Origin: an uncultured Lachnospiraceae bacterium
Lineage (GTDB): Bacteria > Bacillota > Clostridia > Lachnospirales > Lachnospiraceae
Length of the DNA: 44,388 bases
Direction of reading: 5' to 3'
NCBI GenBank assembly: GCA_947627245.1
Contig: CANQVH010000025.1
Span: forward strand, 1-44,388
Shown here: one piece after another, positions 1,959 to 33,080 of the stretch
How the letters are laid out: each line of letters begins with the position of its first letter
How positions within the stretch are numbered: position 1 is the stretch's first letter
The notes under the pieces: generated by a model
Told to the model about the DNA's origin: nothing
The model's input: only the letters and a program-made list of their open reading frames with translations
Databases searched by the model: none
Translations under genes and position numbers: made by a program

Positions 1959-2004
1959 TGCATTACCAAAAACTGTGCAATACACAAAAATGAGGAGCGT
2001 TATT

Positions 2005-4839: not shown

Positions 4840-4891
4840 TCTGCTAAGCAGTCGAATGATTTCCAGCAATTAATAAAGTAATATAATTCAG

Positions 4892-4925
4892 GAGCTGCCC
4901 TTGCGGCAGCTCTGCTTTATTATAT
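4892..4925 (+). terminator. Intrinsic terminator after pilin copy A
   Basis: Perfect 8-bp stem GAGCTGCC/GGCAGCTC (4892-4899 and 4905-4912) with a 5-base loop, followed by TGCTTTATTATAT. The same terminator is found after pilin copy B. Confidence 0.85.
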
Positions 4926-4953
4926 ATGAGTTTTAAACCCAGAAGGAGCAGCT

Positions 4954-7458: not shown

Positions 7459-7496
7459 ATGGCCGGATCCTTTGTAAAATCTTAATAATATTTTGC

Positions 7497-7525
7497 TTGA
7501 AAACTATCATGCTATTTTATATAAT
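7497..7525 (+). promoter_or_regulatory. Promoter of nuclease copy 3
   Basis: -35 TTGAAA (7497-7502), 17-base spacer, -10 TATAAT (7520-7525). It starts 38 bases after the LTA-synthase-like stop codon. The -35 and spacer lie in the inverted repeat; the -10 lies outside it. Confidence 0.8.
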
Positions 7526-7587
7526 GTGAATAGAACAGCCAGATTGCGGAACGTATTTTCGATGGGGGAAGAGAAAATACTGAACGG

Positions 7588-9926: not shown

Positions 9927-9969
9927 GACTACATTTCCTCCCACACTTATCCGGTTCAAATTCTCCAAT

Positions 9970-9998
9970 ATCATACCATGCAGGCATGACTTTTTCAA
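9970..9998 (-). promoter_or_regulatory. Promoter of the O-antigen ligase family gene
   Basis: Minus strand: -35 TTGAAA (9993-9998), 17-base spacer, -10 TATGAT (9970-9975), 43 bases before the start at 9926. It is conserved hexamer for hexamer upstream of the truncated copy. Confidence 0.75.
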
Positions 9999-10032
9999 TG
10001 ACAAATGATTGTGGGATTTCCGATTGCTATCT

Positions 10033-10085
10033 AAAATAGCACGATAGTTTTCAAGCAAAATATTATTAAGATTTCACAAAGGATC
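10033..10085 (-). repeat. Copy of the nuclease-promoter segment with the -10 box cut off
   Basis: From GATCCTTT (10081-10085 side) through TTGAAA and the whole spacer this segment equals the promoter regions of nucleases 2 and 3. At 10032/10033 it joins unrelated sequence, so the -10 becomes GATAGC. A nuclease gene is therefore absent here and the promoter is probably weak or dead. Confidence 0.75.
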
Positions 10086-10092
10086 CGGCCAT

Positions 10093-12600
10093 CTACGGTA
10101 CAAACTTTTCCCACAGTTTTTCTTTGCTGTCTATGAGAAGGTTGTACTGTATCTTCTGCAGCTCCGCCAATTCATCCGCAAAGGGCCCGGCTTGCGCCGA
10201 GTCATAATAGGTTCCGTCCGCTGTCCAATAACCAAGCGCGGACAATGCCGGTACGGATTCCTGCAGATCCAGAAGGTAGCGGTCATAACTGCTCAGCTCC
10301 AGTCCGGCATAGCGAAGCACCGTAGAGCCGAGATAGTTTGCAGAAAGGGTATTCAGCTTTGCCTGCTCCCGGTCTGTCCCCATCCGGTCGGCCTCTTCGA
10401 TGTCGTAATTCGCCCAGATCACATACGGCACGTAATGGCGGCTGATATTCTGAGCCTGCTCGTCCTCCCACGCGGGATGCCCGCCCAGCAGCTCCACATC
10501 CTTATCGGTAAAGGATGGCTGGTGGTCGCCGTACATGACGAGGATCGTCGGCTCGTCCACTTCTGCAAAATATTCCGTCAGCTTCCGGAATGCGTCATCC
10601 GACATCCGGATCAGGGAAAGGTACGTCTCCAATTCTTCCGGCGCGTCAAAGTTCGTGACGCTGACCGGTTCGTCAAATTCATAATCCCCGTAATATCCGC
10701 CGTGGTTCTGGATCGTCACATTGAAGCAGAAAAACGGGTTATCCGGATATTCTTCACGGCTCTTTTCATACAGTTGTATTACCCGGTCAAAATTAGCCTC
10801 ATCCGTGACGTAATCCCGGAAGATCTGCTCAGGCGCAAAATCATCCATGAACCGGTCTTCAAACACACTCTCATCAAAGCCCAGATGATGGTATGCGCCG
10901 GTACGGCTGTAGCCGGAAGAATAATAGCTGTGGTAAGCCACCGTATGGTAAGGAACCCCTTGTCCTTTCAGCGCCTCCGCAAGCGATGGGATGGCATGGT
11001 TGATGTACTGCGAATACGGGATGCATCCGTAAGGCAGGAACGCGAGGGAACTCCGCGTGAGCACCTCAAACTCCGTATTGGCCGTCGGCCCTACCATAAC
11101 GGAGAGATTCAGGAAGCCCTTGGCCGTATTTTCCGCCAGCGAATGGATGAAAGGCAGGGTGTCCCGATCCGTCTCCAGATCATAGACCATGGAAAGGTCG
11201 GAAAAAGCTTCGTTCTGGATGATAATGATGTTCGGCTCCTGTGCGGCCGCTTCTGCATCGGGGCTTTTGCCCGGAACGCTTTTGCCTGTATCGCCTGACG
11301 CATTGCCATCCGTATTTCCTGACACACTGCTATCTGTATTTCTCGGCGTACTGTCGTCCGTATCTCCTGACGCACTGTTGTTCGTCCTCCTATCCGACGC
11401 GCTGTCCAACGCAGCCAGCGCAGCCTCCGGAGAATAGCCCTCACATTCCACGTGGCTCTGCTCGTGCATGTTGCTGAGGAAAAACGGCACATAGCCCACA
11501 TGGGCAATGTTGATGCTGTAATCCCAGCTCACGCCGTTGACATTGTGGTAGAGCATGCCGCTTAAATATCCCCAGACCGCGGCAGCAGCTACAAGCGCAG
11601 CCCCGGCAAGCGACAGGACGCAATGTCTCGCCGAAACCTTCTGCGGCTTTGGCAGGCGGACCAGAAGGATAACCACCGCCGCAGCGAGAAAGATGCAAAG
11701 GGTAAGCCAGAAATAACCTCCGGGTTTGAACGTATAATTCCCCGCTACCTCAAGCGCAGTCCCGACCGCGGTCAGATCCCCGAACGTGACATAGCTGCCG
11801 CGGAGCTGGAAAACCACATGGTTTGCCACGCCGACAAAGTACGCGGCCGCCAGAGTAACCAGCCCGGCAGGCTTGACCCGCCTCTGAAAGAGGAAGTACA
11901 AAAACAGCTCCACCAGCACCCAGAAAACGTAACTCAAGATGCACATGGACGGCATCAGGTACAGCTTGCTTGCACACAAAAGCTCGACCAGCGCCATGCA
12001 AACATACGGCATGGCAAGGAGCAGGAGGAACGTCCGCGTTGACGTCTGCATATGGCGGAACGCCTCCCACGCCTTTTTCCAATCCAGCAGCAGGCAAGTG
12101 AAAACCAGCCAAGCGAACACCCAGCGCAGGTAATTGTACTGCATGTTGATCTGATACAGATAATCCTGCACTACGTCATTCCACAGGAAAGTCCGCCGTG
12201 TCAGGAGAAACGACAGGACGAACGCCGCCACAATATAACGCAGTATGGACAGAAGCCCGTATATTCTTCTGTCCGGGTCTCGGAATACACCTTTGGTTGG
12301 ACGCGCGGCATAGCAGAGGAGCAGATACCAGAAAAGCCAAAGCGGAAGAAGGAGGAAAAAAGCGCACCAGAGGAAGCTTTCCAGAGTTTGTGCGTAGAGG
12401 TCTACATCCGGATGTTGCTCCACATATGCAGAAAGTGGCACATCATCCAGCATTTTTCCGACTTGTGTGCTGCTCGCGGAAAATAAAATGGCTGTATCGG
12501 AAGCTGCCCGAAAAAGATTACCTGAGAATACAAAGAGGACAAATGCTGAAATAAGCAGTGAAATCACTGGTTTTTTTATGTGTCGTATGGAACACTTCAT
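10093..12600 (-). CDS. LTA synthase family (sulfatase-fold) membrane enzyme, copy B
   Basis: 835 residues; ATG at 12600 with GGAG 5 bases upstream. Same architecture and active-site motifs as copy A: QNEAF, GPTANTEFEVLT, GDHQP. Differences from copy A cluster in the first 40 or so residues and in the Ser/Gly/Asp/Thr-rich linker between membrane part and catalytic domain, where units such as ASGDT and VSGNT vary. The rest is almost unchanged. It follows pilin copy B after an intrinsic terminator, so expression probably depends on read-through or on a promoter not recognised here. Confidence 0.85.
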   Translation of the reverse strand: MKCSIRHIKKPVISLLISAFVLFVFSGNLFRAASDTAILFSASSTQVGKMLDDVPLSAYVEQHPDVDLYAQTLESFLWCAFFLLLPLWLFWYLLLCYAARPTKGVFRDPDRRIYGLLSILRYIVAAFVLSFLLTRRTFLWNDVVQDYLYQINMQYNYLRWVFAWLVFTCLLLDWKKAWEAFRHMQTSTRTFLLLLAMPYVCMALVELLCASKLYLMPSMCILSYVFWVLVELFLYFLFQRRVKPAGLVTLAAAYFVGVANHVVFQLRGSYVTFGDLTAVGTALEVAGNYTFKPGGYFWLTLCIFLAAAVVILLVRLPKPQKVSARHCVLSLAGAALVAAAAVWGYLSGMLYHNVNGVSWDYSINIAHVGYVPFFLSNMHEQSHVECEGYSPEAALAALDSASDRRTNNSASGDTDDSTPRNTDSSVSGNTDGNASGDTGKSVPGKSPDAEAAAQEPNIIIIQNEAFSDLSMVYDLETDRDTLPFIHSLAENTAKGFLNLSVMVGPTANTEFEVLTRSSLAFLPYGCIPYSQYINHAIPSLAEALKGQGVPYHTVAYHSYYSSGYSRTGAYHHLGFDESVFEDRFMDDFAPEQIFRDYVTDEANFDRVIQLYEKSREEYPDNPFFCFNVTIQNHGGYYGDYEFDEPVSVTNFDAPEELETYLSLIRMSDDAFRKLTEYFAEVDEPTILVMYGDHQPSFTDKDVELLGGHPAWEDEQAQNISRHYVPYVIWANYDIEEADRMGTDREQAKLNTLSANYLGSTVLRYAGLELSSYDRYLLDLQESVPALSALGYWTADGTYYDSAQAGPFADELAELQKIQYNLLIDSKEKLWEKFVP

Positions 12601-12631
12601 GTTTACTCCTAGTTGTACTGAATATGTTTCT

Positions 12632-12664
12632 GTAATAAAACAGAGCTGCCATAAGCGGCAGCTC
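12632..12664 (-). terminator. Intrinsic terminator after pilin copy B
   Basis: Minus strand: stem GAGCTGCC/GGCAGCTC (12657-12664 with 12643-12650), 6-base loop, then TGTTTTATTAC. Equivalent to the terminator at 4892-4925. Confidence 0.85.
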
Positions 12665-12687
12665 CGTAACTACAGTCTTCGAACTAA

Positions 12688-13113
12688 CTATGACGTCGAA
12701 GTCCATTCTCCGTTCCTGTAATAAATTGTTTTTCCGCCAGTACCACCTGCGGTATATGAATCAGGAACCACTTCAAAAGCACTTCTGGTAGTTACGCCCG
12801 CAGCATTGTTTTTGTATGTAAAGACTAAACTGCCACTTACACCAGCCAGATTATTTATTGCGGTTTTCGAAATATTAGCCTTGTTTGGAGTTTTCTTACC
12901 ATACTCTTCGGATGCCAATGTCTGCGCTGCAAGATATGCACTTCTCGCATCAAGTACAATCTGTTTCTCTTTCGCCTTGTCAATCCACCCCAGCAGTGCC
13001 GGTACAAGGATCGCCGCCAAGATTGCCAAGATAACCAATACTACAATCAACTCAACCAGAGTAAAACCTTTTTTATTCTCTCTGGCCTTTTTTGCTTTTG
13101 CAAACAAACTCAT
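12688..13113 (-). CDS. Type IV major-type pilin (class III prepilin)
   Basis: 141 residues from the ATG at 13113, selected for GGAGG 8 bases upstream. The leader MSLFAKAKKARENKKG is followed by FTLVELIVVLVILAIL, a canonical prepilin-peptidase site with Glu5 and the long hydrophobic helix used for packing into type IV filaments. The mature protein (about 126 residues) has few cysteines and a Gly/Thr-rich C-terminus. It has its own strong promoter and is followed by a terminator, the pattern expected for a highly expressed major pilin. A leaderless relative with a very different C-terminal half lies at 4429-4839. The four minor and giant pilins directly upstream make a filament locus likely. 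Confidence 0.9.
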   Translation of the reverse strand: MSLFAKAKKARENKKGFTLVELIVVLVILAILAAILVPALLGWIDKAKEKQIVLDARSAYLAAQTLASEEYGKKTPNKANISKTAINNLAGVSGSLVFTYKNNAAGVTTRSAFEVVPDSYTAGGTGGKTIYYRNGEWTSTS

Positions 13114-13256: not shown

Positions 13257-13925
13257 TCACAGCTCCTTAATATTGCTCTCTGCCAAGTTAAAACAGTCAA
13301 TTGCGCGCTTCATCGTGAAGGTGTGGTCGTCGCCTGCGATCTTGTTTCTCATCGTCAGGGTAATGCTCAGGCAACTGGTATCGCCGCCCGAGGTGTCTTT
13401 GATTCGGCTGACCTTAAAGGTCTTTATGTCGCAGTTCTGGTATACGCCCGTCCCGAGCTGCCAGTGGCTTTTCGTCCATTTGGCGGTCGGTTCGGCCCCC
13501 GCTTCCGGCTGAATGAAGTAGTCCATAGCCAGATATCCCTGTCCGTCTGTTTCCTGCCGGTACATCTTCACAACATTGCCGCTCTCTCCGTCTACATACC
13601 AGATTACAGAATTCCCTGCGCCGTCTTTATCCAGAAGCATGCATTCTTTTTCTCCGGCGGAAGGCGCCGTCTCCCCTTCGGGATTAAAATTAGCATCCTT
13701 AAATACGCCTTCCCACCACCTCGCCGCGCTCAGGTTGCTTGTAACGGTATCCATCACGATCGAGGCGACGTCCTGCTCCGTAGCTACTGCGCTCGCTACC
13801 GTGTGGCTTCTCATGAACGTACTCAGCACCATAGCGGCGGAGCTCATGAAGATTGCAGTGAGCGTAAACGTCACTATGATTTCTACGAGGGTAAAGCCCC
13901 CGCGATTTTTCCAAAGTCTCTTCAT
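13257..13925 (-). CDS. Minor pilin / pseudopilin (PilW/GspJ-like position)
   Basis: 222 residues; ATG at 13925 with GGGAGAAGG just upstream. The leader MKRLWKNRGG precedes FTLVEIIVTFTLTAIFM, a complete prepilin site with Glu5. The globular part is larger than that of the major pilin and has a WYVDG strand region and a single Cys pair candidate (QNCD, TSCLS). It is the last gene of the tip-pilin operon, 17 bases after the preceding stop. The order large pilin, PilX-like, PilV-like, PilW-like suggests a priming tip complex as in type IV pili and type II secretion pseudopili. Exact orthology cannot be assigned by eye. Confidence 0.75.
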   Translation of the reverse strand: MKRLWKNRGGFTLVEIIVTFTLTAIFMSSAAMVLSTFMRSHTVASAVATEQDVASIVMDTVTSNLSAARWWEGVFKDANFNPEGETAPSAGEKECMLLDKDGAGNSVIWYVDGESGNVVKMYRQETDGQGYLAMDYFIQPEAGAEPTAKWTKSHWQLGTGVYQNCDIKTFKVSRIKDTSGGDTSCLSITLTMRNKIAGDDHTFTMKRAIDCFNLAESNIKEL

Positions 13926-13942
13926 GCCTTCTCCCGCCTCTT

Positions 13943-14344
13943 CTACTTATAAAAATACATCGAATACGTCAGGCTCTCCGAGTCTTCGGGTTCTGACGTC
14001 CCGCTTCCGGATGGCGTAATGTTGACCGTGTACTCGCGCAACCGAAGCCGACCGTGCAGCTTGAACGCCGACGTACCCGCTCCGGATGACCCATCACCCT
14101 CATAAACATTGAGCACGTAGGATTCACCTGCGGGTGCAGAAGCGTATTCCGGATAAAAGTATTCCTCCAGCACCTTGCCCGTAGCGGTGTTCAGCGTCTC
14201 CGCGCGGCGAACCATCTCATTTGCGGTACCGACTGCGCGCGCAAAACCCGCAATCCCGATCAAGAGTATGATGAACGCCACCAGAACAGAAATCATCGAG
14301 GAGCCGTTCGTATTCAACAGTTGATTTTTCAATCTCTGCCTCAT
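13943..14344 (-). CDS. Small minor pilin (PilV/GspI-like position)
   Basis: 133 residues from the ATG at 14344, which overlaps the stop of the gene before it (ATGA). Its N-terminus (GSSMISVLVAFIILLIG) has the hydrophobic pilin-like helix but lacks a clear G/FxxxE site: the segment after SS has Ser, Val and Leu where Glu5 would be. Lack of Glu5 is known for the tip-proximal GspK-type pseudopilins. Start choice rests on the overlap and on the position of the helix; a longer frame to 14377 is open but lies within the upstream gene. Confidence 0.65.
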   Translation of the reverse strand: MRQRLKNQLLNTNGSSMISVLVAFIILLIGIAGFARAVGTANEMVRRAETLNTATGKVLEEYFYPEYASAPAGESYVLNVYEGDGSSGAGTSAFKLHGRLRLREYTVNITPSGSGTSEPEDSESLTYSMYFYK

Positions 14345-14952
14345 TTTCTGTCGCCGCTCCTTCCCTTGACAGTCCATTTCCAGAAGTACTTCCCCGAATT
14401 AGATGTATCTTCCGTTACCGAAGACAGAAACTCCCGCTTCACATGATATTCGGAACCGTTCAGCGTGCTGATCACATCCACAAACAAATGCAGATTCTTA
14501 CCCTCCAGCTCTGCTTCGTCACCGATCGGGGTTGTCAATTCTTCGTCCGATGTCCAGTACATCTCGATCCTGATCTGATGCTTGCTTCCCTCGCCGCCCT
14601 CTTCCGTCGTATCCATCGTGAAGGTCTTTATCGCCCCTTCCGGGCCGTCCTTTTCTTCATCATAAGCCGGCCAGCCCTTTTCAACGATCTCATCACGCAC
14701 ATAGCGCACCAGATTGGGCGGATTGGTCGCAGAGCTTTCTTCCGTCACGCTCCCATTCACAATGTCCTTTGCAAACAGCTCGCTCAGGGATGCAGCCTGT
14801 ATCTTCCCACGCTCGTAGATAATGTTGTTTCTGGCGGTGTTCAGTGTCACGGAGCCTGCCAGAATGATCGTGGTCGACAATGCAAGAAATACTACCATCA
14901 CGCAGAGCACGATCACCATTGCGGCGCCGCTGTTTCTCTCTTTCCTGCTCAT
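14341..14952 (-). CDS. Minor pilin-like protein (PilX/GspK-like position)
   Basis: 203 residues; the ATG at 14952 overlaps the stop of the giant pseudopilin (ATGA), so translation is probably coupled. The N-terminus MSRKERNSGAAMVIVLCVM gives a short basic leader and a long hydrophobic helix without Glu5, typical of PilX_N/GspK-type proteins. The rest is an acidic globular domain with no recognised motif. It probably belongs to the tip complex with its two downstream neighbours. Confidence 0.7.
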   Translation of the reverse strand: MSRKERNSGAAMVIVLCVMVVFLALSTTIILAGSVTLNTARNNIIYERGKIQAASLSELFAKDIVNGSVTEESSATNPPNLVRYVRDEIVEKGWPAYDEEKDGPEGAIKTFTMDTTEEGGEGSKHQIRIEMYWTSDEELTTPIGDEAELEGKNLHLFVDVISTLNGSEYHVKREFLSSVTEDTSNSGKYFWKWTVKGRSGDRK

Positions 14953-17900
14953 TGCATGACCTCCCCAGCAGGCGCTTCGAGACCCGCAGTCTCTCCTGTG
15001 GGCGCATCAAGGCTCATGGTAACCTCAGAAAAAGCTTCCGTTCCCGCAGGCAAGCCCTCGGTCCCTGCCTGCGCGGGCGCCGCGGCTGCCTGTGTCTGCG
15101 GCTCTGTCGGAGCCTGTGTCTGGGGTTCTGTCGGAGCCTGTATCTGTGTCTCTGACGGCGCCTGCGTCTGCGGCTCTAACGGGATCTGCGTCGGCTCTAT
15201 CACAGGCTGTTCCTGCGGTTCCACGACAACATCCCCACCGTCAAGTATGATTCCGTCGTCTGTCCAGCCCGTGTCTCCGCCGTTATCCGGCAAGATCTCC
15301 TGTACGTCCCCATCCGGCAGCGTCGTATCCGGCACAACATCAGTTCCGGTTTCTGCCACCATGTTCCCGTCAAGGTCGAACGAGAAGACCATCTCACTGC
15401 CTATGGTCGCCAGATCCGTCGGATTATCGGTCTGCATCGCAGCCTGCATTGCGGCCACATCCTCCGCGATATCTCCCTCGTACCAAATGATCTGCTCCTT
15501 ATATTTCCTCGGCACGAACGTATAGCCTTCCGCGTTGTCCTTCTCCACATCAAACTCGTCATATTTTCTGCCCGGCGTCAGCAGACGTAGCATACTGGAC
15601 AGTTTCGGTTCCTTTTCCTGCCCCAAAGCCGTGTTTTCCGGCAGTACATAAGCGCCCTGCCTGCGATCCGCCGTGATCGCCTCGTCCGCCTCCGGATCCT
15701 TCTCATACACGCTCTGCAGGAGCTGGCGCACGGTCAGGCTGTGCGTGCAGTAAACTCCGTTGAAGGTATACAGGAATTTCTGCCCTTCCATCGGCTCGAT
15801 ATCCGGAAGGACGATCTGATAATCGACACTCTCCACTTCCTTCGTTGTAACATTCAAATGCTCACGGATTCGAAGCTTCGGATAAAGCTTTTCTATTTTC
15901 TTGGGATTCAGCGTTCCGCCCTCATCCGCCTGAGCATAGCTGACCTCGCAGCTCTCGTCTCCGATCGCCTTCTTATCCAGCTCGATCTCGTAGATTCTCA
16001 GGTTCGGATCCGTCTCAAGCTCCGCCCTGAACCGCTCATAGCGGTCTGGATTCGTCTGATCCGCTTCGATGACCTGCTCAACTGGAACCTTCTTGTACTT
16101 CTCCATATCCTCTCGCGTCTTATCCGGATTCTGTTCCAACCAAAGAGCTATCTCTTCTTCCGTAAAATCGCGCTCCAGATAGTAGCTGTATTCCGTGCTT
16201 GCGTTCCCGCGCATCAGATTCAGCGTGGCCGTCGGACTGTCGTATGTAGCTTGATCCGCGTCGTTATTCAACATCCGGTAAAGCTCGACAAGATATCCGA
16301 CCGCGCGCTGTCCGGCCCTTGGCGTCTCGCCGGCCTTCGGAATGGTCTGCGTCCAACTGTACGCCACATGCTGCAGCGGCTGCGTCTCCGTCCCTGACAG
16401 ATTAAACGTAGGCTCTTCTCCCTCAACCTCGGTTTCAACCGGCGTATATATGTTCACCGTATCAGTTTCCGTCTCAACGGTGCGCTTCATCTCGGGCGCC
16501 TGCAGGCTGATCCTCGGAAGTCTGAGCCACTGGTAACCCGACCACTCGGATCTGAGCTGTCCGTCCGCCGAAACGGAACAGAACTGTACACACAGCCATT
16601 TCCCGGCGTAGCTTAACGGCAATTCGCGGAACATATAGCCTCCGATGTACGGATCTGACATATCAAACTCCGTCTGTCCGTCAAAAGCAGGCACTTCCGT
16701 CAGGCGCAGACTGAGATCCGGATCCATGCCGATATTGGCCCTTTCCGCGTAGAACGCAGCGCGCATCCTGTAGCTGCCCGCGTTCGACACCGTTCCGATC
16801 GTCAGCGTCAGGCCGTCTAAGAATTCCTGCTCCGAGAGAGCCTTATCTTCACCTTCGTCGTCCTTGCCGACCGTCATATCCCAATACGGAACCAGCACAG
16901 CGCTCTCCGGCGGCAGAAGCTCCGGCGCCTCCGTCTGTGTCTGCGGCTGCGTCTGCGGCTCTGTCTCCGTCTGCTCCGTCTCTGTCTCTTCTTCCGTCTC
17001 TGTCTCTGTCTCGGACTCGCTTTCCGTCTGAGTCTGATCCGAACCTGAACCGCCGCCGCCCGTAGAAGCGATCTGCGGCCCTCCTCCGCCCATGCTCACC
17101 GGCGCAGGCGCAGACTCCTCATTCCATCGGATCACACTATTCTGATACGCTGATCCGCCCGTCGTCATCAACGCACTGTAATATACGCGATACAAGCCTT
17201 CCCCGTATCTTTCGATAATATAACCATCTTTTGCCTTGCGTGACGTCAGGATTTTCCGCGGTTCCTGATTCTCTCCGGTCCCGCTCTCATCCGCAGCCGT
17301 CTCCGCCGCCATAGTCTGCGTCTCGCCGGCCGCTGCGATCTGCGTCCCGTCCTCTGCTGTCTGCGTTCCTCCGGTCGCCGCGATCTGCGTCCCGTCCGTC
17401 GTTGCGATCTGCGTCCCGGGCTGAAGATATTCCTCCAGACCCTGCATGGTAACGCCGTCTTTTACCAGATAGCCGAATTTCGGCATACCCTCTGTCATTT
17501 CAAGCGGATAAATGCGCGCATGCGCAAGCTCACCCTGCAATTCATCCGGGATCACGAGCTGTACCACGCCGGTTTCCGTACTACTGCTGATCTGCTTCTG
17601 ATCTGCGGCAACTACGATATCCTCCAGCAGATAATCGCCTTCTTCCACACTTCCGAGCAGCTCTGTCCGGTATGTCGCCGGTTCGCCGCTCAAACTGATG
17701 GTGACAACCGAGCCTTCCCGTTTGACGCTATAACCATCGGCAGGAATGAATCCGTTCGTCAGTTTGCTTGCAGCAGGGATCACCGCTTTGAAGGATTTCA
17801 TCGCGGACGGCGCTTTTTCTGCCGCCGCCTGTCCACCCGTCTCAGGCGGTCTCACCTGAACCTTCGTGAAATTCAGACGGACGTCTGCAGTCTCATTTCC

Positions 17901-20900
17901 GATTGCCGTGCCCAAAATCTCCGTCAGATTGAGCGGCAGGCTGTTCACTGAAATCTTTGTCTCTGTTTCGCTCTTCGCAACAGTTTCTGTGCTCTCCGCG
18001 CCGTCCTCGCCTTCCTGTGCCGTCTCAACGGTCTCGACGCTTACCTTGAAGCCAAGCTCCACATCTCCCTGACTCGCATAATTATCCATGTTCGCAAGCT
18101 TCAGCATATAGACCAGATTTCCTGTCGTCTCGTTCCGCTCCAGACTGATCACCGGCTCCGGATCGATCAGCGATGGCAGGATCTTGATAATGTCTGCATA
18201 AGTATTCGGATCCTCCGTCTGGCGCCCTCCGGTGTAGGAATAATTCGTCACCGTCACCTTGATATACTGGTTCATCCACGATTCGGACACACGCACCGTA
18301 TGGCTGGTCACCCCGCCGTAGAATGTCGCCGTATAGACCGGCTCCTCCGACAGTTCCGCATCCGCTTGCGCATCATCCTTGCTTTCATATAAGCGAAGCT
18401 GCAGCTCTGTCTTGTAGACCTTGCCCTGCGGCTGTGTGCTCTCTGTCTCGCTGGCCGTATCCGAACCGCCCTGCACATCCGGTACTGTTATCTCGCCGTC
18501 CGGCTGAACCTTCTCCTCATCCGGTACCTTGTTCTCCCATGTAATCTCAAGATAACCGCCGTTGTTCGCCGCTTTTACATTTGTCGCAGGCGGAGTCTTC
18601 CCCGGATCAACCGTATCGCCGTTTTCCAGCTTCAGACACGCGCTTGTCATCCGTGGATCAAAACGGTTGTAATTGCCCCTGCAATCCTTCTTATACTCGT
18701 TACTATTCGGATCAGATGCATTCCCAGCTTCATCCGGGGTCGCAAGATAGGATCTGTCACCTCTGCCTGCCTCCGCGTCATCCCAAAGCGGGGACTTGTA
18801 AAGACCCGTCGCATAACTGACTGCCGATCCGAGCCCTGCCGTCTTGATAACCTTCGGCAAAATGAGACTTCCTCCTCCTTCGTCAGGCATCGTTTCCGCC
18901 GAATAATAGTAAACATTCGGATCACTGCTGTTCTTGCTGAAAAGCTGCGACACACGTCTGAATTCGCTCTTATATTCCTCGTCAGGAAGGCCGTCCTTCA
19001 TCGGCACCGTCGGATATTTCACCTGCGCGACACCGATGCTGTTCTCTATGGATACCTTATTCTCAGCCAGTCTTTCGCTGTTTGTATCAAACCCTCCGCT
19101 GACATTCACCGCCAGTCCTGCGAACAAATTCTCCGCATCTTCGACTTCTTCCGCCGGTCTCCCGTAATTGCGGCAAAGGTTCAGCTCCAGAGAAACCGCC
19201 CCGGACTTCTCGCTGTCGTACACCGCGATTCCGGCTCCGCCGCCCCTGATGCAGCCGGCATTCGCACAGTCCTCAATCTTCACGAGCGAGCTCACCTGCG
19301 CAAATCCGTCACCACCCGTCTGCTGAGCCGGAAGCGCTCCTGTTACCGCCGCGATGCCCGCGCCGAGCGGATCATCGACCACGCCAAAATTCGTACAGGA
19401 AAGAATCGTTACCTGCCCGTTGATCCTTGAAAAGCTGCCGACGATACCCGCCGCGCCTGCCTGGCTCGTTGCTTTGATCGTAGCATTTGCATCGCCGATA
19501 TCCTTCCCTGTCTCTGAAGACGTATCCTTTACGCCGTTTACACACCCGCTGATATTTCCTGCCGCGTCGGACGCCCATTCGCCCAGAATGCCGCCCGCCT
19601 TGCCGTCCGCATCGTCAGAGGTGACCGCCGCGTAGTTCACACAACCCTGTATCGCAACCGTTGACGCCGGATTCTCACTGTCCAAAGCGACACGTCCGAC
19701 AATACCGCCGGCCGCCCCGCCGCCTGCGCTGCTGCCCGTCGCTGCGATCACAACATCTTCCTGTGAGCCGCTGTCCTCATTCCCCGACAGGGTTACCTGA
19801 GCATAGTTCTGCAGGCCGTTCAGCTCCATCGCGGTGTGCGTACCGATAACACCACCCACGGAACCCGACGTCTGAGCCGCTGTAACCGTCCATCCGCTGC
19901 CGCTGTATGCCTCCAGCACACGCGCCCGGCCTTCATTGATGCCGACGATGCCGCCCGTCGCCTGCGCTCCGGTGGTGCTGATCGTTACAGTGCTTGCATC
20001 CGAATTTCCATCAATCCTCCGGATCTCCGCATTTTCTCTGTTGCGTCCGGCAATACCGCCCACATAGCTGCCGCTTACGGTAATTTCAGCCGCGCCAAGC
20101 TTACAGAGCTCTATAATGCCCTCTCCGGCGTTGATGCCCGCAATGCCGCCGTAGGATGCATCCGGCTTCGCCACGCCTGCACCGCTCGTGATGTCGCCTG
20201 TATATACGATATTCTTGATCGTACCCATGTTCTGCCCGGCAATGCCGCCCAGCGCCCCGGCGCTCGCGTACTCAAGGCTGACGCTGACGCTTGCCTGTGC
20301 GCTGTACACACCGTCGACCATGCCGTCGATCGTACCGTAATTCACGCCTGCGACGCCGCCCACGTTCGCCGCATTCGGTGCGTTCATCGTCACGTCATCG
20401 CTCATATTGCCCATGTAGATCTTGCCTGCACGCCGGTTCTCGCCGACGATGCCGCCCAGCGACGAATTCAGCCCGGCCGTAGCCTGCGCCGGTGTGCAGC
20501 CTTCGATCAGGCCCTCATTGACGCCGGCAATGCCGCCCGCGACGTCGTTTCCTGTGATTCCGGAAGCCGTGCTGTTCCTGATCGTGGCCGGTTTATCCGA
20601 ATCGACATAGCCATTCACACCCACAATGCCGCCGACATAATTCTGCGTGCTGCCGCCCGCGCTCATATTGGAAGCGGAGCAACCTGTAATCGTTCCCTCA
20701 TTAACCTCGGCAAGCCCGCCGATGTAGGTCGCGCTGTTCGCCGTCACGCTTCCGCCGCTCCCGTCGCTTCCTCCCACAAACTTGCAGTTTTCAAGCGTCG
20801 TATTCGCTGAAACATAGCCAAGGATCCCGCCGCTGAAGCTGTAGGCCATATCGGAGCCGTATTTCGCCGTCGGCAGCGCAGGATCCGTCAAGGCGCTGTT

Positions 20901-23900
20901 CGCCGTCACTGCCGCGCTGCCTGTGCAATTATTTATCGTCAGTTTTGTCTGCGCCGCGTTGTACCCCAGCACACCGCCCGCAAACACACCTGCCGTCACG
21001 GAACCGCTTACAGTCCCGTCTTTGATCATCATCGTCCCGGACGAATCAGCGTCCCCATTGATAGCGTCCCCATCCATAGCGAACACATTCAGCGCCTGCG
21101 CGCGCAGGTCAGCCGTCTTTGCCACATCGGTCATATTCGCCACAATGCCGCTGGTCTCGCCGCGGTCAAACAGTCCCCCAAGCGAATCCACCACACGGTT
21201 GTAGCCGAACAGCCCGCCCGCGAGCGCACTGGTCGCCTCGACCGTTGCCGTTCCGTCAACGATCGTGACTGTCGCCGGTTTTTCAATAATATTAGCGCCC
21301 GCGTAGCCGCCCACGTAGCTGTTTCCGCTGACCGTCCCTGCATTCCAAGTAAGAGAGCCGTTCAGCAGTTCCACGGAAGTATTCAGGCCGACCGCGCCGC
21401 CCACGAAGCTTTCTCCCGCGACGGAAACTCCAGCCGTTGTATAGCCGGAAATCGCCCCGCCATCGTTCTCGCCGTCATTGTATCCCACAATACCGCCGAC
21501 GTAGCTGCGCCCCGTCACGTTTCCTGTAACTTCAATATTGGAAGTTCCTGTGAGGCTGCCCCTGTTGCAGCCCGCGATGCCGCCGACGTAATCCGCGTAT
21601 CCGCCGCCAAGCGCAAGGAACAACTCACTCTGAGAAACATCCGGCATGCTCGTCGTGCTGTCCGCGATCGTCCCGGCGTTCACACCTGCGATACCGCCGA
21701 TATATTCCGGCGCGCTCACGCTGTCTCCCGCGCCGATCACAACGCCATTGTTCGTCCAGCCGGAGATCGTCGCACCGGAGCCGGTAACGTCCGTATACTT
21801 CACCGCATCTAAGCTGGCCGCCTCTTCCGACACACTCCCATTCGCGCCGACAATGCCGCCGATGAAACGTCTGCCGACCACGGTCGCATTATTACTCTTT
21901 CCGTTCGGAGTCAGACTTCCGCCCGCGCTCAGGCCGACAATACCGCCGACAAAGTTCTTTCCTAATACATAACCTCCATCCGTACCGCAGCCGACAAGCA
22001 ATGCAGATCCGTTCATATAGCCTGCAATACCGCCCACATAGCTGCCGTACAGCCTCTTCTGTACTTCCTCCGCCGTCAGCGCAGTCACACTGCCGTCCGC
22101 GCTCTGCGGCATCGGATTGCTGATGCAATTCTTAACAGTTGCGCCATCCAGATACCCGACAATACCGCCGATGTTCTTCGGCTCCGCAGCCGCTCCTGTC
22201 GTCTCCGACAGCGCGACCCCATCGGGATAACCGTACACGATACCACTGTTCTCCGCGCTGGACAGCGTCCCTTCATTGAGCAGGCCGACAATTCCGCCAA
22301 CGTTTCCAAGACCGCTTACCTCCGCGCCGTTCTTCAGCCCGGATACAGTTTCGGTGGAAGCTCCCTCTCCAAAGCTTCCGAAAATACCGCCGACGTTTTC
22401 ACCGCCCGCCACATAGCCGCTGACCGTCTCTACATTTGCAAGTCCGCCATCATTCAGGCCGCAGAACGCGCCGACATTCTTCCCGGCAAAACCGTGCGCC
22501 GTATCTATGCCACGTACGTCAACATTTTGAAGTCTGAGAGCCTGAATCGTACCTTTGTTTACACGCACGAGTCCCGTCGCGTCGTCCGCGCCAGTCGCGC
22601 CCTGCTCCGGCTGGAGCGTCAGATAATCGATCGTCCAGCGCAGATCCGTGACCGATGCCTCCGCCTCGCCATCGTCTTCGCCTTCCTTTTTCTCGTCTTC
22701 CTCTTCGCCCTGCGCCGCCTTCATTTCCTCCTCAGTCGCAGTTCCCACCAGTTTACTGTTCGCATTCAGGACGGCGATTCCCGGGAAAGCAGGATAGATC
22801 GTCCGCTCGCCCTCCGCAGCCTCAGTGTAGCCGTAAGGGTTTTGTTCACTATAATATTTCGCAGTCGTCTGCGCGCCTGTGGCCGTCGGTGATACCTCGC
22901 CCTCAGCCGCGTTCTCCTCCAGCCCCGTCTGAGCAAGGAGACCGTCCGGCCCGCCCCATGCGAAATCATTCACAATCTTATATGTAGTTGAAGCAGTCGA
23001 GCTGCCAGCAGCCTGTTCGAAGAGACTGACATTATATAGATGGCGCGCATTCGCGATCTCGTACTCGGCGTTGCCCGACTCGGATTTTCCGTCCGCAAAA
23101 AACAGATTCTCCGCCGCTGTCTGCTGCCCGGGATCCTCTTCTCTTGCCAGTACGTACACCTTCGCAGACACCTTCGCAGAGCCGTCCAGACTCAGCCCGT
23201 AGTGAGTTCCGTCCTTCTCATAGCTCAGACGCCGGCCGCTGTATGTCTTCATAAGCTCTGCCTGAGGATCTGCATCTGCCTCTGTACTTTTCATCGCTTC
23301 GGCCGCATAGGAATCCATTACGTCAAGCGAAAGCGCAATGCCGCTGCCAAAATCATCCTTAGAATCATCCTGAACCAGATAAGCATGAAACTTGATCCCG
23401 CTCTTTTGGTCTGCCTCACTCGAGTCGCTTGCACCCGAAGCCTCCAAAACGCCCTCAGATGTCAATTTCAGCGCAACGCCATCGTCGCTACTTGGATCTG
23501 AATTGAAGAGCTTCACGCTTTCCGCTTCCACAGACGGATGATTGCCGCCTTCGCGTGTGACAGACAACACATCATCTTTATTTAAGATAATTTCCGCCAG
23601 ACACTTCGTGCCTTCATCTTCATAAAGCTCGATCTTGTAGCTCTGCGCGCTCTTCATATACTGATATTTCTTATCGAGAAACCACTGAACATCCAATGAC
23701 TCCGCATTCACCATGCGGGCCTTTTTGACCTTCAGATCCTTCACTTCCTCCTGCGGCGCCTGCTCGGAGAGCTCGGTGTTGTAATAGCCGAGGCCGACCC
23801 GTCTGCGATAAGACGCGTCACGCCGCGAAATATCCATCGTGTCTGTGCCCTCGCCATAAGAAAACTTCTGCCCCTTATCGCTATAGAGCACACCGGAAAC

Positions 23901-24479
23901 CACGCCGTCCTGCGCGTCGAACTCCACGCAGATTGAAGCATTGTAAATGCCCACGTCCGTCACATAATTGCTCAGAAGATCAAACAAAAGCTTCGTCTCT
24001 TCAGGCACGCTGTCAGGCACGCTGGCATCATCAAGATTCTGTTTTCCGGCCTTGACTTCCGCCTCGATCGCTGCATAATCGTCACTTGACATTTTAAGAT
24101 AGGAAATCGTGCTGTAATCCATCCGCGCGCCGTCTCCCGCCGACGCGTCCACATCCGCGTATGCATCCTGCGGAACAAACGTAGGTGTGTGATCCGGCAG
24201 AGTCTCCATACTCTTGCGCAGGCCGTCCAGTCTGCCGCTGGCCTTGTAGTATGTAATCGCGGACTGCGCCGCACTGAAAAGCGTCTTCGCGTTCTCATTG
24301 TTCCGCTTGTAGGTCGAGTACATGGTATACCCCAGCATACCGCCGGCCGAAACCGCAGCCAGCAGCCCGATCAACGCAAGCACAACAATCAGCTCCACTA
24401 ATGTGAAGCCGCTTCGCGCCTTTGAAGCACTCTCCTTCTTCAATTTTCTCTGAACGCTTTCCATAACCTGTTTCTTCAC
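14949..24479 (-). CDS. Giant modular pseudopilin with GLUG repeats and Fn3-like domains
   Basis: 3176 residues from a GTG at 24479, chosen because AAGGGGAA lies 4-5 bases upstream and it gives a short basic leader; ATGs at 24464 and 24500 are alternatives. The prepilin site SG/FTLVELIVVLALIGLLA is near residue 17, followed by the pilin helix and a roughly 200-residue pilin-like head. About residues 635-1775 contain dozens of GLUG-type units (NVGGIVG, YVGGIAG, and similar), a beta-helix-forming repeat found in bacterial adhesins. Fn3-like segments begin near 1960 (PPATNVKAANN, LEITWEN). A Thr/Glu/Gln low-complexity stretch lies near 2480-2515, and Pro-Gln-Thr repeats (PQTQAP) near the end at 3095-3135. 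No sortase motif or transmembrane end is seen, so anchoring would be by polymerisation into a type IV filament. First gene of a four-gene operon; likely a tip adhesin. Confidence 0.85.
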   Translation of the reverse strand: MKKQVMESVQRKLKKESASKARSGFTLVELIVVLALIGLLAAVSAGGMLGYTMYSTYKRNNENAKTLFSAAQSAITYYKASGRLDGLRKSMETLPDHTPTFVPQDAYADVDASAGDGARMDYSTISYLKMSSDDYAAIEAEVKAGKQNLDDASVPDSVPEETKLLFDLLSNYVTDVGIYNASICVEFDAQDGVVSGVLYSDKGQKFSYGEGTDTMDISRRDASYRRRVGLGYYNTELSEQAPQEEVKDLKVKKARMVNAESLDVQWFLDKKYQYMKSAQSYKIELYEDEGTKCLAEIILNKDDVLSVTREGGNHPSVEAESVKLFNSDPSSDDGVALKLTSEGVLEASGASDSSEADQKSGIKFHAYLVQDDSKDDFGSGIALSLDVMDSYAAEAMKSTEADADPQAELMKTYSGRRLSYEKDGTHYGLSLDGSAKVSAKVYVLAREEDPGQQTAAENLFFADGKSESGNAEYEIANARHLYNVSLFEQAAGSSTASTTYKIVNDFAWGGPDGLLAQTGLEENAAEGEVSPTATGAQTTAKYYSEQNPYGYTEAAEGERTIYPAFPGIAVLNANSKLVGTATEEEMKAAQGEEEDEKKEGEDDGEAEASVTDLRWTIDYLTLQPEQGATGADDATGLVRVNKGTIQALRLQNVDVRGIDTAHGFAGKNVGAFCGLNDGGLANVETVSGYVAGGENVGGIFGSFGEGASTETVSGLKNGAEVSGLGNVGGIVGLLNEGTLSSAENSGIVYGYPDGVALSETTGAAAEPKNIGGIVGYLDGATVKNCISNPMPQSADGSVTALTAEEVQKRLYGSYVGGIAGYMNGSALLVGCGTDGGYVLGKNFVGGIVGLSAGGSLTPNGKSNNATVVGRRFIGGIVGANGSVSEEAASLDAVKYTDVTGSGATISGWTNNGVVIGAGDSVSAPEYIGGIAGVNAGTIADSTTSMPDVSQSELFLALGGGYADYVGGIAGCNRGSLTGTSNIEVTGNVTGRSYVGGIVGYNDGENDGGAISGYTTAGVSVAGESFVGGAVGLNTSVELLNGSLTWNAGTVSGNSYVGGYAGANIIEKPATVTIVDGTATVEATSALAGGLFGYNRVVDSLGGLFDRGETSGIVANMTDVAKTADLRAQALNVFAMDGDAINGDADSSGTMMIKDGTVSGSVTAGVFAGGVLGYNAAQTKLTINNCTGSAAVTANSALTDPALPTAKYGSDMAYSFSGGILGYVSANTTLENCKFVGGSDGSGGSVTANSATYIGGLAEVNEGTITGCSASNMSAGGSTQNYVGGIVGVNGYVDSDKPATIRNSTASGITGNDVAGGIAGVNEGLIEGCTPAQATAGLNSSLGGIVGENRRAGKIYMGNMSDDVTMNAPNAANVGGVAGVNYGTIDGMVDGVYSAQASVSVSLEYASAGALGGIAGQNMGTIKNIVYTGDITSGAGVAKPDASYGGIAGINAGEGIIELCKLGAAEITVSGSYVGGIAGRNRENAEIRRIDGNSDASTVTISTTGAQATGGIVGINEGRARVLEAYSGSGWTVTAAQTSGSVGGVIGTHTAMELNGLQNYAQVTLSGNEDSGSQEDVVIAATGSSAGGGAAGGIVGRVALDSENPASTVAIQGCVNYAAVTSDDADGKAGGILGEWASDAAGNISGCVNGVKDTSSETGKDIGDANATIKATSQAGAAGIVGSFSRINGQVTILSCTNFGVVDDPLGAGIAAVTGALPAQQTGGDGFAQVSSLVKIEDCANAGCIRGGGAGIAVYDSEKSGAVSLELNLCRNYGRPAEEVEDAENLFAGLAVNVSGGFDTNSERLAENKVSIENSIGVAQVKYPTVPMKDGLPDEEYKSEFRRVSQLFSKNSSDPNVYYYSAETMPDEGGGSLILPKVIKTAGLGSAVSYATGLYKSPLWDDAEAGRGDRSYLATPDEAGNASDPNSNEYKKDCRGNYNRFDPRMTSACLKLENGDTVDPGKTPPATNVKAANNGGYLEITWENKVPDEEKVQPDGEITVPDVQGGSDTASETESTQPQGKVYKTELQLRLYESKDDAQADAELSEEPVYTATFYGGVTSHTVRVSESWMNQYIKVTVTNYSYTGGRQTEDPNTYADIIKILPSLIDPEPVISLERNETTGNLVYMLKLANMDNYASQGDVELGFKVSVETVETAQEGEDGAESTETVAKSETETKISVNSLPLNLTEILGTAIGNETADVRLNFTKVQVRPPETGGQAAAEKAPSAMKSFKAVIPAASKLTNGFIPADGYSVKREGSVVTISLSGEPATYRTELLGSVEEGDYLLEDIVVAADQKQISSSTETGVVQLVIPDELQGELAHARIYPLEMTEGMPKFGYLVKDGVTMQGLEEYLQPGTQIATTDGTQIAATGGTQTAEDGTQIAAAGETQTMAAETAADESGTGENQEPRKILTSRKAKDGYIIERYGEGLYRVYYSALMTTGGSAYQNSVIRWNEESAPAPVSMGGGGPQIASTGGGGSGSDQTQTESESETETETEEETETEQTETEPQTQPQTQTEAPELLPPESAVLVPYWDMTVGKDDEGEDKALSEQEFLDGLTLTIGTVSNAGSYRMRAAFYAERANIGMDPDLSLRLTEVPAFDGQTEFDMSDPYIGGYMFRELPLSYAGKWLCVQFCSVSADGQLRSEWSGYQWLRLPRISLQAPEMKRTVETETDTVNIYTPVETEVEGEEPTFNLSGTETQPLQHVAYSWTQTIPKAGETPRAGQRAVGYLVELYRMLNNDADQATYDSPTATLNLMRGNASTEYSYYLERDFTEEEIALWLEQNPDKTREDMEKYKKVPVEQVIEADQTNPDRYERFRAELETDPNLRIYEIELDKKAIGDESCEVSYAQADEGGTLNPKKIEKLYPKLRIREHLNVTTKEVESVDYQIVLPDIEPMEGQKFLYTFNGVYCTHSLTVRQLLQSVYEKDPEADEAITADRRQGAYVLPENTALGQEKEPKLSSMLRLLTPGRKYDEFDVEKDNAEGYTFVPRKYKEQIIWYEGDIAEDVAAMQAAMQTDNPTDLATIGSEMVFSFDLDGNMVAETGTDVVPDTTLPDGDVQEILPDNGGDTGWTDDGIILDGGDVVVEPQEQPVIEPTQIPLEPQTQAPSETQIQAPTEPQTQAPTEPQTQAAAAPAQAGTEGLPAGTEAFSEVTMSLDAPTGETAGLEAPAGEVMQ

Positions 24480-24604
24480 TTCAGTTCCCCTTTTCCCCAT
24501 ATAGATCCGTGCAACACCGGCAGCCAAAATCCCTCTGCCGCACTGCGTAAATCCTTTGCATTACATGTATATTTTTAAAAAAGGGCATAAAAACCCAATT
24601 TTTT

Positions 24605-24980: not shown

Positions 24981-25250
24981 CTACCTCGGAAGCTGCCGCA
25001 TGAACTCCTCCACAGAAGACGCAGATGCTGCCAGCTTCAAATATCTGCGCAGCACGTCGGCATCCTGCTCAGAGGAGAGGAATTCCCGCAACTCTTCCGA
25101 GACCTCACCGGGAAGATCAGCCAGCAGGTCAAGGATACTATTTGTGATACCTCTTACGATACCTTTTGTGATACCTTTTGCTATGCCTTTCGCTTCACCT
25201 TCATTATAACCGGACTCGCGCTGCTCCTGCAGCATCTCCTCAAGTATCAT
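24981..25250 (-). CDS. Probable intragenic RpnS-like tail protein (internal start)
   Basis: In-frame ATG at 25250 (codon 215), preceded by GGGAGG with 8-base spacing. The 89-residue product starts MILEEMLQE and ends VEEFMRQLPR. A free-standing gene at 25958-26221 encodes an 87-residue protein that aligns along its whole length and starts at the same point, which supports this as a real start. Inhibition of the full-length nuclease is inferred from E. coli Rpn work. Confidence 0.6.
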   Translation of the reverse strand: MILEEMLQEQRESGYNEGEAKGIAKGITKGIVRGITNSILDLLADLPGEVSEELREFLSSEQDADVLRRYLKLAASASSVEEFMRQLPR

Positions 25251-25892
25251 AAATCTCGCCTCCCATTCCCGACTCGCCTTCACCCGGCGCACTGCAGCCT
25301 GCAACTGCCGCACATAGCCATCTTCCGAATCTTTTGTACTCTCCTGCAAACTTAATCCTATGTATTTAAGAAAACCGACAAGTCCCTCCGGCACCTCGTC
25401 TTGATTTGTTCCATGAGTACTCAGAAACATCGTCGTCAGACCATCCTGTAAAGCAAACTCTCGCTCCTCCAGACACATGTTTCGGAACGTGTACCGATAC
25501 CTTCCCCGATCAAACGGGTCAAAATCACAGATGAAGATCACATATGCGTCCGGCAGGCTTCCATAACCGCCGCCTCTGCGTAACAATTCCATATCAATCT
25601 GGCTGTGATAATATCTCGCCCTATGCTCCAGAGCCGGCTTCGGGATTACCTGCATCTCGACGTTAAATCGAGTATGATTCTCATCACTCGCCTCAACGTC
25701 CAAACGCACTCCCTTATACTCCGGATGATACACCAAGCTCTTTTCGATACTGACTGTCAGTTTCCCGATCGGAATCCCCAGCGCCATCTCCAAAAACGGC
25801 CTGCAGTTTTCAGGATCCGTCATTACCGCCCCGAACATGAAATTGTCTTTTAGCGTCAACATGTCCAGTTTTCTTTTTCTATTTTCTCCCAT
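24981..25892 (-). CDS. Rpn family recombination-promoting nuclease / PDDEXK_2 protein
   Basis: 303 residues; ATG at 25892 with GGAGGG 8 bases upstream. The N-terminus (LTLKDNFMFGAVM) is the classic opening of the PDDEXK_2/Rpn family, followed by the catalytic Asp65 (RLDVEA) and Glu79-x-Gln81 (NVEMQ). The middle YYHSQID and SLPDAYVIFICDFDPF blocks also fit the family. A tail from residue 215 contains GIAKGITKGI repeats, a helical region (EVSEELREFL) and a conserved end (ASSVEEFMRQL). Rpn proteins are DNases with roles in recombination and phage defence. This protein is not closely related to the three copies at 1-8.5 kb but shares their two-part plan. It is the only complete nuclease of this type here, next to two solo tails. 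Confidence 0.9.
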   Translation of the reverse strand: MGENRKRKLDMLTLKDNFMFGAVMTDPENCRPFLEMALGIPIGKLTVSIEKSLVYHPEYKGVRLDVEASDENHTRFNVEMQVIPKPALEHRARYYHSQIDMELLRRGGGYGSLPDAYVIFICDFDPFDRGRYRYTFRNMCLEEREFALQDGLTTMFLSTHGTNQDEVPEGLVGFLKYIGLSLQESTKDSEDGYVRQLQAAVRRVKASREWEARFMILEEMLQEQRESGYNEGEAKGIAKGITKGIVRGITNSILDLLADLPGEVSEELREFLSSEQDADVLRRYLKLAASASSVEEFMRQLPR

Positions 25893-25932: not shown

Positions 25933-25961
25933 ATTATAGAACAGATACATTTTTATTTCAA
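25933..25961 (-). promoter_or_regulatory. Promoter of the Rpn gene
   Basis: Minus strand: -35 TTGAAA (25956-25961), 17-base spacer, perfect -10 TATAAT (25933-25938). The -35 overlaps the stop codon of the solo tail gene. Confidence 0.8.
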
Positions 25962-26221
25962 GAAAAATCAGATTTAGAAAACAGATTTACAAATTCTTCA
26001 ACGGAAGATACTGATCTTATCATTCTACGGTATCCACGCAATACATCAATGTTCTTTTCAGATAGGATACTCTGCCTCAATTCTTCCGGAACCTTACTAA
26101 AACGATTATCCAAAAGCTCAACGACGGCCTCTGCGTATCCTTTCGCGTATCCTTCCGCGTATCCTTCCGCGTATCCTTCCTCATATGCTTCCTGTAGCAT
26201 TTCCTGTAATATCAGCATCAT
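25958..26221 (-). CDS. Free-standing Rpn tail protein (RpnS-like)
   Basis: 87 residues from an ATG at 26221 (a GTG at 26230 is also possible). It has no nuclease domain. It aligns with the last 89 residues of the adjacent Rpn protein: EMLQEA with EMLQEQ, GYAEGYAKG with GYNEGEAKG, PEELRQSILSE with SEELREFLSSE, DVLRGY with DVLRRY, SSVEEF with SSVEEF. It carries four GYAEG-type units. It may be a leftover of a decayed nuclease gene or a stand-alone inhibitor. The ribosome site is moderate (GGTGGGG 3-4 bases upstream). Confidence 0.6.
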   Translation of the reverse strand: MMLILQEMLQEAYEEGYAEGYAEGYAKGYAEAVVELLDNRFSKVPEELRQSILSEKNIDVLRGYRRMIRSVSSVEEFVNLFSKSDFS

Positions 26222-26272
26222 AAACCCCACCGCCTATTTCTGATCTATTTTCATCTGACACATCACAGCATT

Positions 26273-29953: not shown

Positions 29954-29999
29954 AGCACTCTTCCTTTCCATATCACTTGCTTCAATTTCTCACCTTACT

Positions 30000-33029: not shown

Positions 33030-33080
33030 CGTAAATCCCTCCAATATGTAAAGCAGAATTCCACAGATTTCCTCAACTAT

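Follow-up and report, generated by a model that had tools for sequence, protein, structure and literature searches.

Modular pilins, in which extra domains are grafted onto a class III signal peptide and a pilin module, are a known kind of protein: over 1,200 of them with 264 different architectures have been reported, the most extreme multi-domain case given there having 860 residues (PMC8179133). In Streptococcus sanguinis two such proteins, PilB and PilC, belong to the minor-pilin complex of a monoderm type IVa pilus, are thought to be located at its tip and were shown to be adhesive (PMC8179133, PMC9934059, PMC10628169); processed PilC has a mass of 52.8 kDa (PMC9934059). Other points of reference are the four minor pilins GspHIJK and FimU-PilV-PilW-PilX and, in diderms, the tip adhesin PilC/PilY1, a large effector which is encoded with tip minor pilins but is not itself a pilin. 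Here we analyse a contig of 44,388 nucleotides from an uncultured Lachnospiraceae bacterium (assembly GCA_947627245.1, contig CANQVH010000025.1; the whole of it is called the window below), in which one gene (14949–24479, minus strand) codes for a prepilin of 3176 residues. Judging from its sequence, this giant is likely to be a modular minor pilin that occupies the H position of a HIJK-type tip complex in a monoderm type IVa pilus and presents an arm built of repeats.

The closest systems are similar to this locus only in part. Like other modular pilins the giant has extra domains behind a signal peptide and a pilin module; unlike them, giants form one recurring family with up to 7,664 codons versus 860 residues (PMC8179133). 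With PilB and PilC of S. sanguinis it shares an N-terminal pilin module, a large C-terminal module and a putative place in the minor-pilin complex of a monoderm type IVa pilus, but its estimated mass is about 330 kDa, an array of GLUG-type repeats replaces the vWA or lectin module, and four pilins in the order H-K-I-J replace PilABC. Four minor pilins encoded together, K without Glu5 and I weakly similar to PilV, resemble GspHIJK and FimU-PilV-PilW-PilX, from which the locus differs by its gene order and by the giant arm on H. As in the case of PilC/PilY1 a large effector is encoded with tip-type minor pilins, while carrier and effector would here be joined in one chain. Thus, the kind of protein is known, and what is new is a recurring class of giant, putatively H-position pilins. 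A pilin of thousands of residues was not found among the matches listed from the open PMC literature, with preprints and most subscription papers lying outside it; the term 'modular pilin' occurs there in six papers. The original prediction, made from the letters of the window, had stated that none was described at this size, and the 860-residue protein is indeed the most extreme multi-domain case found in the literature, but giants recur across the family.

The giant prepilin and its arm

The frame of the giant is open over positions 14949–24527 of the minus strand, which gives 3192 codons if counted from a TTG at 24527; the GTG at 24479 was taken as a start, and an ATG at 24500 is another alternative. 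A leader (residues 1–24) is followed by a pilin module (approximately 25–240), a linker with further sequence to about residue 600, GLUG repeats (approximately 668–1800), further sequence (approximately 1990–2900) and, from about residue 3070, an acidic tail rich in Thr, Glu, Gln and Pro. The leader is short and basic, and the prepilin site GFTLVEL begins at residue 24, so that Gly-1, Glu5 and the hydrophobic helix of a class III signal peptide are all present. The N-terminus is recognized above curated cut-offs by PF07963 (26.4 bits versus 21.2) and by TIGR02532 (24.7 versus 16.3), in agreement with the complete prepilin site proposed for this protein, whose size is about 20 times that of a usual pilus subunit.

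Positions 23760–24410 of the minus strand code for the prepilin site and pilin module, the part represented in our alignments A1 and A2. Across the 20 heads of A1, which were drawn from a similarity search with the motif used for trimming only (G179 and the second copy of G184 were left out), G-1, T2 and E5 never vary. The A2 profile, made of 26 heads, was compared with solved structures and matched pilins best, namely chain 8pfb_G of PilE1 with an E-value of 3.9e-10, over the first 58 residues at most; the pilin fold of the head is putative. Beyond the head, 35 of 36 giants have no other hydrophobic stretch than the N-terminal pilin helix. An LPxTG-like motif within the last 60 residues was registered in one giant out of 36, and a sortase-anchored adhesin was rejected on these grounds.

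In the arm, the repeat array is encoded at 19080–22478 (minus strand). A simple GLUG-type pattern, defined for this analysis, occurs 26 times at residues 696–1676, while 200 shuffles of the same residues gave 1.6 instances on average and never more than 6; the repeats over about 1000 residues noticed originally are therefore real. The Pfam family Glug scores 17.3 bits in the giant of the window, under its cut-off of 20.5, and is matched in nine of 14 giants with a best E-value of 8.6e-8. The Fn3-like domains also proposed turned out to be weak: fn3 is found in one giant of the 14 (E-value 0.006) and not in that of the window. The giant is thus composed as a modular pilin, with a pilin module and behind it a module which is not specific for pili. 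At E ≤ 0.01 nothing but Glug and fn3 was matched in Pfam by these 14 giants beyond the N-terminal motif, PilY1 is not among the Pfam matches of the giant, and searches of PDB with residues 640–1750 and 1800–3175 of the window's protein gave one chance-like match apiece; the assumption that the arm is a known enzyme or binding domain was rejected accordingly.

The boundary between pilin module and arm is marked by a natural short version. In the congener G152 the same gene codes for an ordinary pilin of 198 residues, which aligns to the head of the giant through the GYY motif, stops a few residues further on, and has a stop codon overlapping the start of K by ATGA, just as in the window. Since the short H ends near GYY with the overlap kept, the pilin module can be assigned to residues ~25–240, behind which about 2,900 residues were added with the operon undisturbed; the head is the sole part of the giant kept in this version. 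In a quick tree of 58 heads (16 of 54 forks open, five long end branches, arbitrary root) the short forms G152, G172 and L106 stand each singly among giants, which suits repeated, separate loss, and loss of the arm, with a bare pilin left behind, seems to have occurred more than once. This tree used 23 of 80 named loci, the remainder being mostly ordinary pilins. It left out nine of 40 H proteins by motif or score (G179b, G084, G129, G087, G220, G162, G044, G126, G293) and four of eight class- and phylum-level heads in which the script did not find the prepilin site (L200, L204, L205, L206). Because the omitted rows comprise short forms of 190 and 192 codons and one of intermediate length (498), short versions are under-represented in it. 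One relative (L097) was labelled giant by hand, and L172 (Eggerthellaceae, 1364 residues), whose branch is very long, is possibly no member.

The arm itself seems to have been inherited as one piece rather than grafted repeatedly: when 14 full-length giants from 14 genera are aligned globally, invariant columns extend from residue 1 to residue 2893. MAFFT, by which the alignment was made, aligns any set globally, and the weight is therefore put on these columns and on pairwise identities, which amount to 45–72% over the length in seven pairs of complete giants. In six of eight pairs the best-conserved window lies within the first 300 mature residues, as exemplified by G012/L105 (95% in the first 150 residues, 57% overall), G270/L104 (82% versus 53%) and L115/L118 (69% versus 47%).

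Companion genes, assembly machinery and spread

The giant's stop codon and the start of the following gene share letters at 14952, as do the stop of that gene and the ATG of the third at 14344; both ATGA overlaps, claimed originally, were read from the letters. The first follower (14341–14952, minus strand, 203 residues) is a K-like minor pilin without Glu5, a feature which marks the apical subunit (PMC10628169). Glu is absent from the first 14 residues of the helix in all 27 K proteins labelled at E < 1e-4, the start of the mature helix being set by a simple rule. Its suggested likeness to GspK and PilX is thus borne out by position and by the missing Glu5 and not by family: the K protein of the window has no family match at a meaningful level, PilX_N was matched in one of 14 relatives (E-value 0.0082) amid chance-like matches, and a K profile against PDB gave six matches at E ≤ 1 with no pilin among them. 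The third gene (13943–14344, minus strand, 133 residues) was expected to be a small minor-pilin-like one and does resemble PilV, at 22.2 bits under the cut-off of 52.2 of TIGR02523; we call it I-like. Seventeen bases further begins the J-like gene (13257–13925, minus strand, 222 residues), the fourth of the predicted set, with a canonical prepilin site and 27.7 bits to PF07963.

Genes missed by the original prediction complete the pilin set. A gene of the major-pilin type (A; 12688–13113, minus strand, 141 residues) stands behind J, with a promoter-like site at 13192–13164, from a scan that found 12 such sites overall versus 7.5 in shuffles, and a terminator-like one at 12667–12640. Two modular prepilins with N-termini of the major-pilin type are encoded upstream of the giant on the same strand, one of 1060 residues (26789–29971) with Big_2 Ig-like domains and one of 992 residues (30066–33044) with Big_2 slightly under the cut-off. 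In the relative G120 a modular prepilin of 1692 residues adjoins its giant. All five PF07963 matches of the window genome at E ≤ 0.001 fall in the window, and a profile search adds a sixth there, a headless pilin described below.

Pilus assembly genes, whose absence had been named as an argument against the original prediction, are present elsewhere in this genome (3.84 Mb in 151 contigs, 97% complete). An operon on contig C106 (7.7 kb) contains pilD (A24_N_bact and Peptidase_A24), pilC (T2SSF), a PilM-like gene (PilM_2 with 21.3 bits, under the cut-off of 27), a PilO-like gene whose product has no Pfam match, and pilB (MshEN and T2SSE). The set PilM/N/O with PilB, PilC and PilD that defines type IVa is accordingly found on C106 with PilM below its cut-off, no separate PilN identified in the operon and pilB incomplete. 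In the congener G152 H-K-I-J and assembly genes are divided in the same way (C11 and C28 there, C25 and C106 here). Further clusters on C2 and C50, which we take for Tad systems, match T2SSE, T2SSF and peptidase A24. A gene of the phage-integrase family adjoins the operon of C106 on the opposite strand (L024:6243–7454), near the site usual for the pilin genes in many relatives. Contig C30 (L025) contains pilT- and pilC-like genes together with three small proteins, each with a single hydrophobic stretch at the N-terminus and lacking the usual prepilin motif, and this set adjoins apparent ATP synthase genes, as judged by sight. PilY1-like adhesins, which the giant was supposed to replace, were searched with PF05567; there was no match in the one genome or in any of the 299, but with the control likewise positive in 0 of 14 genomes the result proves nothing and was dropped as a support for replacement. 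PilC/PilY1 is described as absent in monoderms (PMC9934059).

Gene order was compared in 40 stretches from 20 relatives and 20 more from 19 genomes, two of which had been sampled before; labels were given by profiles from the first set and by the proteins of C106 and C30, and a few assembly-gene labels may denote genes of other type IV filament systems. Among the labelled genes H-K-I-J is consecutive in 24 of 39 H loci, the window included (22 giant and 2 short H; unlabelled genes in between were ignored, for instance in G270), and K-I-J-H was found in two more. Assembly genes are located in the same stretch at 28 of the 39 loci, frequently in the order H-K-I-J-A-X-pilD-pilC-pilM-pilO-pilB-pilT, and a pilT-like gene lies within the labelled cluster at 14. 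The loci were selected for holding H, and these counts therefore show linkage and not frequency. In one relative (G179; L073, L093) a member of 7652 residues with 74 GLUG-type motifs starts at the edge of the stretch, a weak PilM match lying ~7 kb upstream, beyond it; its C-terminus resembles, as we take it, a SleB-type cell-wall hydrolase. In another (G184, L062) tandem giants of 3220 and 3165 residues, 72% identical, both precede K-I-J.

The family was sampled by 299 genomes, about one per genus. The first 300 residues of the giant found matches in 41 of them and the A2 profile in 72 at E ≤ 1e-6, with ordinary pilins among them. At E ≤ 1e-20 the profile detected 31 genomes, 27 of which have a frame of at least 1,000 codons (1,435–4,540 in 26 of them, 7,664 in one); the best frames of the other four have 200, 226, 787 and 829 codons. 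PilM of C106 was matched in 50 of the 299 genomes. A cut at E ≤ 1e-40, chosen once the list was known, leaves 22 genomes with PilM, of which 20 have a giant (1,542–4,186 residues from start to stop) and two a short H (198 residues in G152, 213 in G172). At E ≤ 1e-10 the head was also registered in 18 of 391 genomes of the class (the window genome and two family members included) and in 5 of 398 of the phylum (with the window genome, a family member and a class member among them); many of these are ordinary pilins. Frames of giant length (2780, 2449 and 2035 codons) occur among the matches, beside shorter ones with a matching head (190, 192, 369, 498 and 511). The named relatives of the window are Lachnospiraceae. 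The closest of them, L097, comes from a contig of a metagenome-assembled genome called 'Lapin' (which we read as rabbit), is 58% identical and ends at the contig edge. Diplocloster agilis ASD5720 and Cuneatibacter caecimuris DSM 29486, both presumably cultured, carry frames of 3039 and 2857 codons, respectively. In total, the original proposal that an operon of minor pilins is headed by a modular one in a Gram-positive family came out strengthened by comparative genomics.

Proposed tip position and its alternatives

Based on these data one can assume that the pilin module of the giant would take the H (GspH/FimU-like) place among H-K-I-J, which would prime and cap a type IVa pilus. Prepilins are inserted into the membrane by Sec, and the giant would enter it by the same route. 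PilD would then cleave it after Gly24, its N-terminal helix would join the K-I-J complex that starts the filament, presumably in one copy per pilus, and PilC, PilM, PilO and PilB would push the filament out, carrying the C-terminal part of ~2,900 residues outside as a long arm, on which PilT-driven retraction would pull. Cleavage, initiation, extension and retraction in this scheme follow pilus biology as established (PMC10191384, PMC9934059). The arm, of approximately 330 kDa, is probably adhesive, with host, mucus or plant polymers as the most likely ligands; this idea comes from the analogy with PilB and PilC of S. sanguinis, from the type of repeats and from the faster divergence of the arm in six of eight pairs. 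Probably we are dealing with a conserved giant arm at the end of surface filaments and not with an oddity of one genome. The broader statement, that Lachnospiraceae and some other Clostridia bear type IV pili whose H minor pilin was turned into an arm of roughly 160–800 kDa, fusing the roles of carrier and effector, and that such pili are not described in the literature searched, seems to us slightly more probable than its opposite.

Several observations weigh against this scheme. The H label was assigned by elimination and gene order, and the models of PilA (30.9 bits) and GspG (20.4) outscore that of GspH (19.3) on the N-terminus of the giant, all of them under their cut-offs (80 for GspH), with the GspH match spanning the N-terminal helix only. 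Profiles of K, I and J were built from the first 20 loci, where labelling is thus partly circular, and 13 of the 39 H loci have other or incomplete sets of minor pilins. In the window genome pilB is truncated by the contig end, and the PilT-like gene lies on a third contig, C30, beside a second pilC-like gene. The association with PilM fades with similarity: between 1e-40 and 1e-20 only three of eight genomes have a giant (G253, G027, G225), and among weaker matches only four of 20 (G026, G129, G139, G179). No known ligand-binding family in Pfam and no solved structure in PDB was matched by the arm. Finally, conservation is highest within the arm in two of the eight pairs (G116/L123 and L119/L174), and the view that the arm evolves uniformly faster than the pilin module was not kept.

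It may be that the prepilin N-terminus serves as a mere membrane anchor and that the giant is a cell-surface adhesin or a wall-spanning stalk which never enters a filament. An arm of ~2,900 residues alone could reach through a Gram-positive wall, polymerisation of the giant is itself putative, assembly genes are missing from the stretch fetched for 11 of the 39 loci, that of the window included, and no PilM match was obtained in G052 and G126, which belong to the 27 strong giant genomes. We nevertheless regard such an anchor as improbable: the cleavage site and Glu5, needless for it, are kept in all 20 heads of A1, the gene is translationally coupled to K, assembly genes stand alongside it at most loci (28 of 39), and the congener's short version is a plain pilin. 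There is likewise a small chance that the giant is built into a filament at another place than the tip, either as a minor component of the shaft or within a short pseudopilus of the secretion type that aids, for instance, enzyme export. H is the subunit nearest to the shaft in the HIJK complex, which speaks for such a place. A position in the filament body is conceivable for modular pilins if the linker is flexible (PMC8179133). The bulk of the arm and its co-encoding with tip-type minor pilins argue for the tip instead, and the pilT-like gene within the labelled cluster of 14 loci points to retractable pili. That the long frame is an artefact of annotation or assembly, or a decaying fusion, might be suspected in a draft of 151 contigs with 7% contamination, a value that also counts against the main explanation, though the congener shows the same division into two loci. 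Conservation leaves this explanation a practically negligible probability: frames of at least 1,000 codons in 27 genomes at E ≤ 1e-20, invariant columns 1–2893 in 14 giants and identities of 45–72% in seven pairs refute it, and an artefact or random fusion was rejected.

Other genes of the window and implications

The major pilin A (13113–12688, minus strand) is followed by a gene of sulfatase fold (12600–10093, minus strand), weakly similar to lipoteichoic acid synthase, and both have a mirror copy at 4428–7458 on the plus strand, the inverted duplication of ~3 kb consisting of pieces (4428–7523, plus, versus 10028–13060, minus). The second sulfatase is 96% identical to the first. In the second pilin (4428–4839, plus strand), a headless and apparently silent copy, promoter, start codon and leader are all unrecognizable; its likeness to A begins sharply at the LVEL codons just behind the cleavage site, amounts to 87% over 177 bases and then decays in the C-terminal half. 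Judging from the letters of the two copies, a silent pilin gene would face its expressed counterpart over the inverted repeat, an arrangement suitable for inversion or gene conversion. In Moraxella bovis pilin inversion involves the same layout, a silent copy facing the expressed pilin. The major pilin would be exchanged if the segment inverted between the pilin arms or if gene conversion took place.

Between the two pilin-sulfatase units there is a gene of the Wzy_C (O-antigen ligase) type (8544–10058, minus strand). Members of this class modify pilins elsewhere, and it could be a pilin-modifying ligase. A PDDEXK_2 gene (PD-(D/E)XK transposase type, 24981–25892) and a small unclassified frame (25958–26230) are situated between the pilin genes, and two frames without a Pfam match (3324–4274 and 7588–8514) share 95% inverted repeats (3900–4297 and 7565–7962); the PDDEXK_2 gene and these frames may have shuffled the locus. 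The region 36900–44308 (minus strand) contains genes of a MacB-like ABC exporter and of two adaptor-like proteins with odd composition, one of which ends in many DDMSYDD-type repeats.

PilFind, developed for Gram-positive pilins, considers proteins of at most 350 residues and was trained on pilins of up to 333 (PMC3244431). A standard pilin finder would miss the giant, and this size limit may be one reason why none was described. With this family the length of modular pilins rises to up to nine times 860 residues. The pilus machine normally handles subunits of 15–20 kDa, and the question arises how it would assemble a subunit of 330 kDa or larger. Long and short tips can be compared within one gene (giants versus G152, G172 and L106), and the two named strains allow direct testing. 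If the proposed tip position is true, a set of gut and rumen anaerobes would have in these pili a strong candidate for an organelle of attachment.

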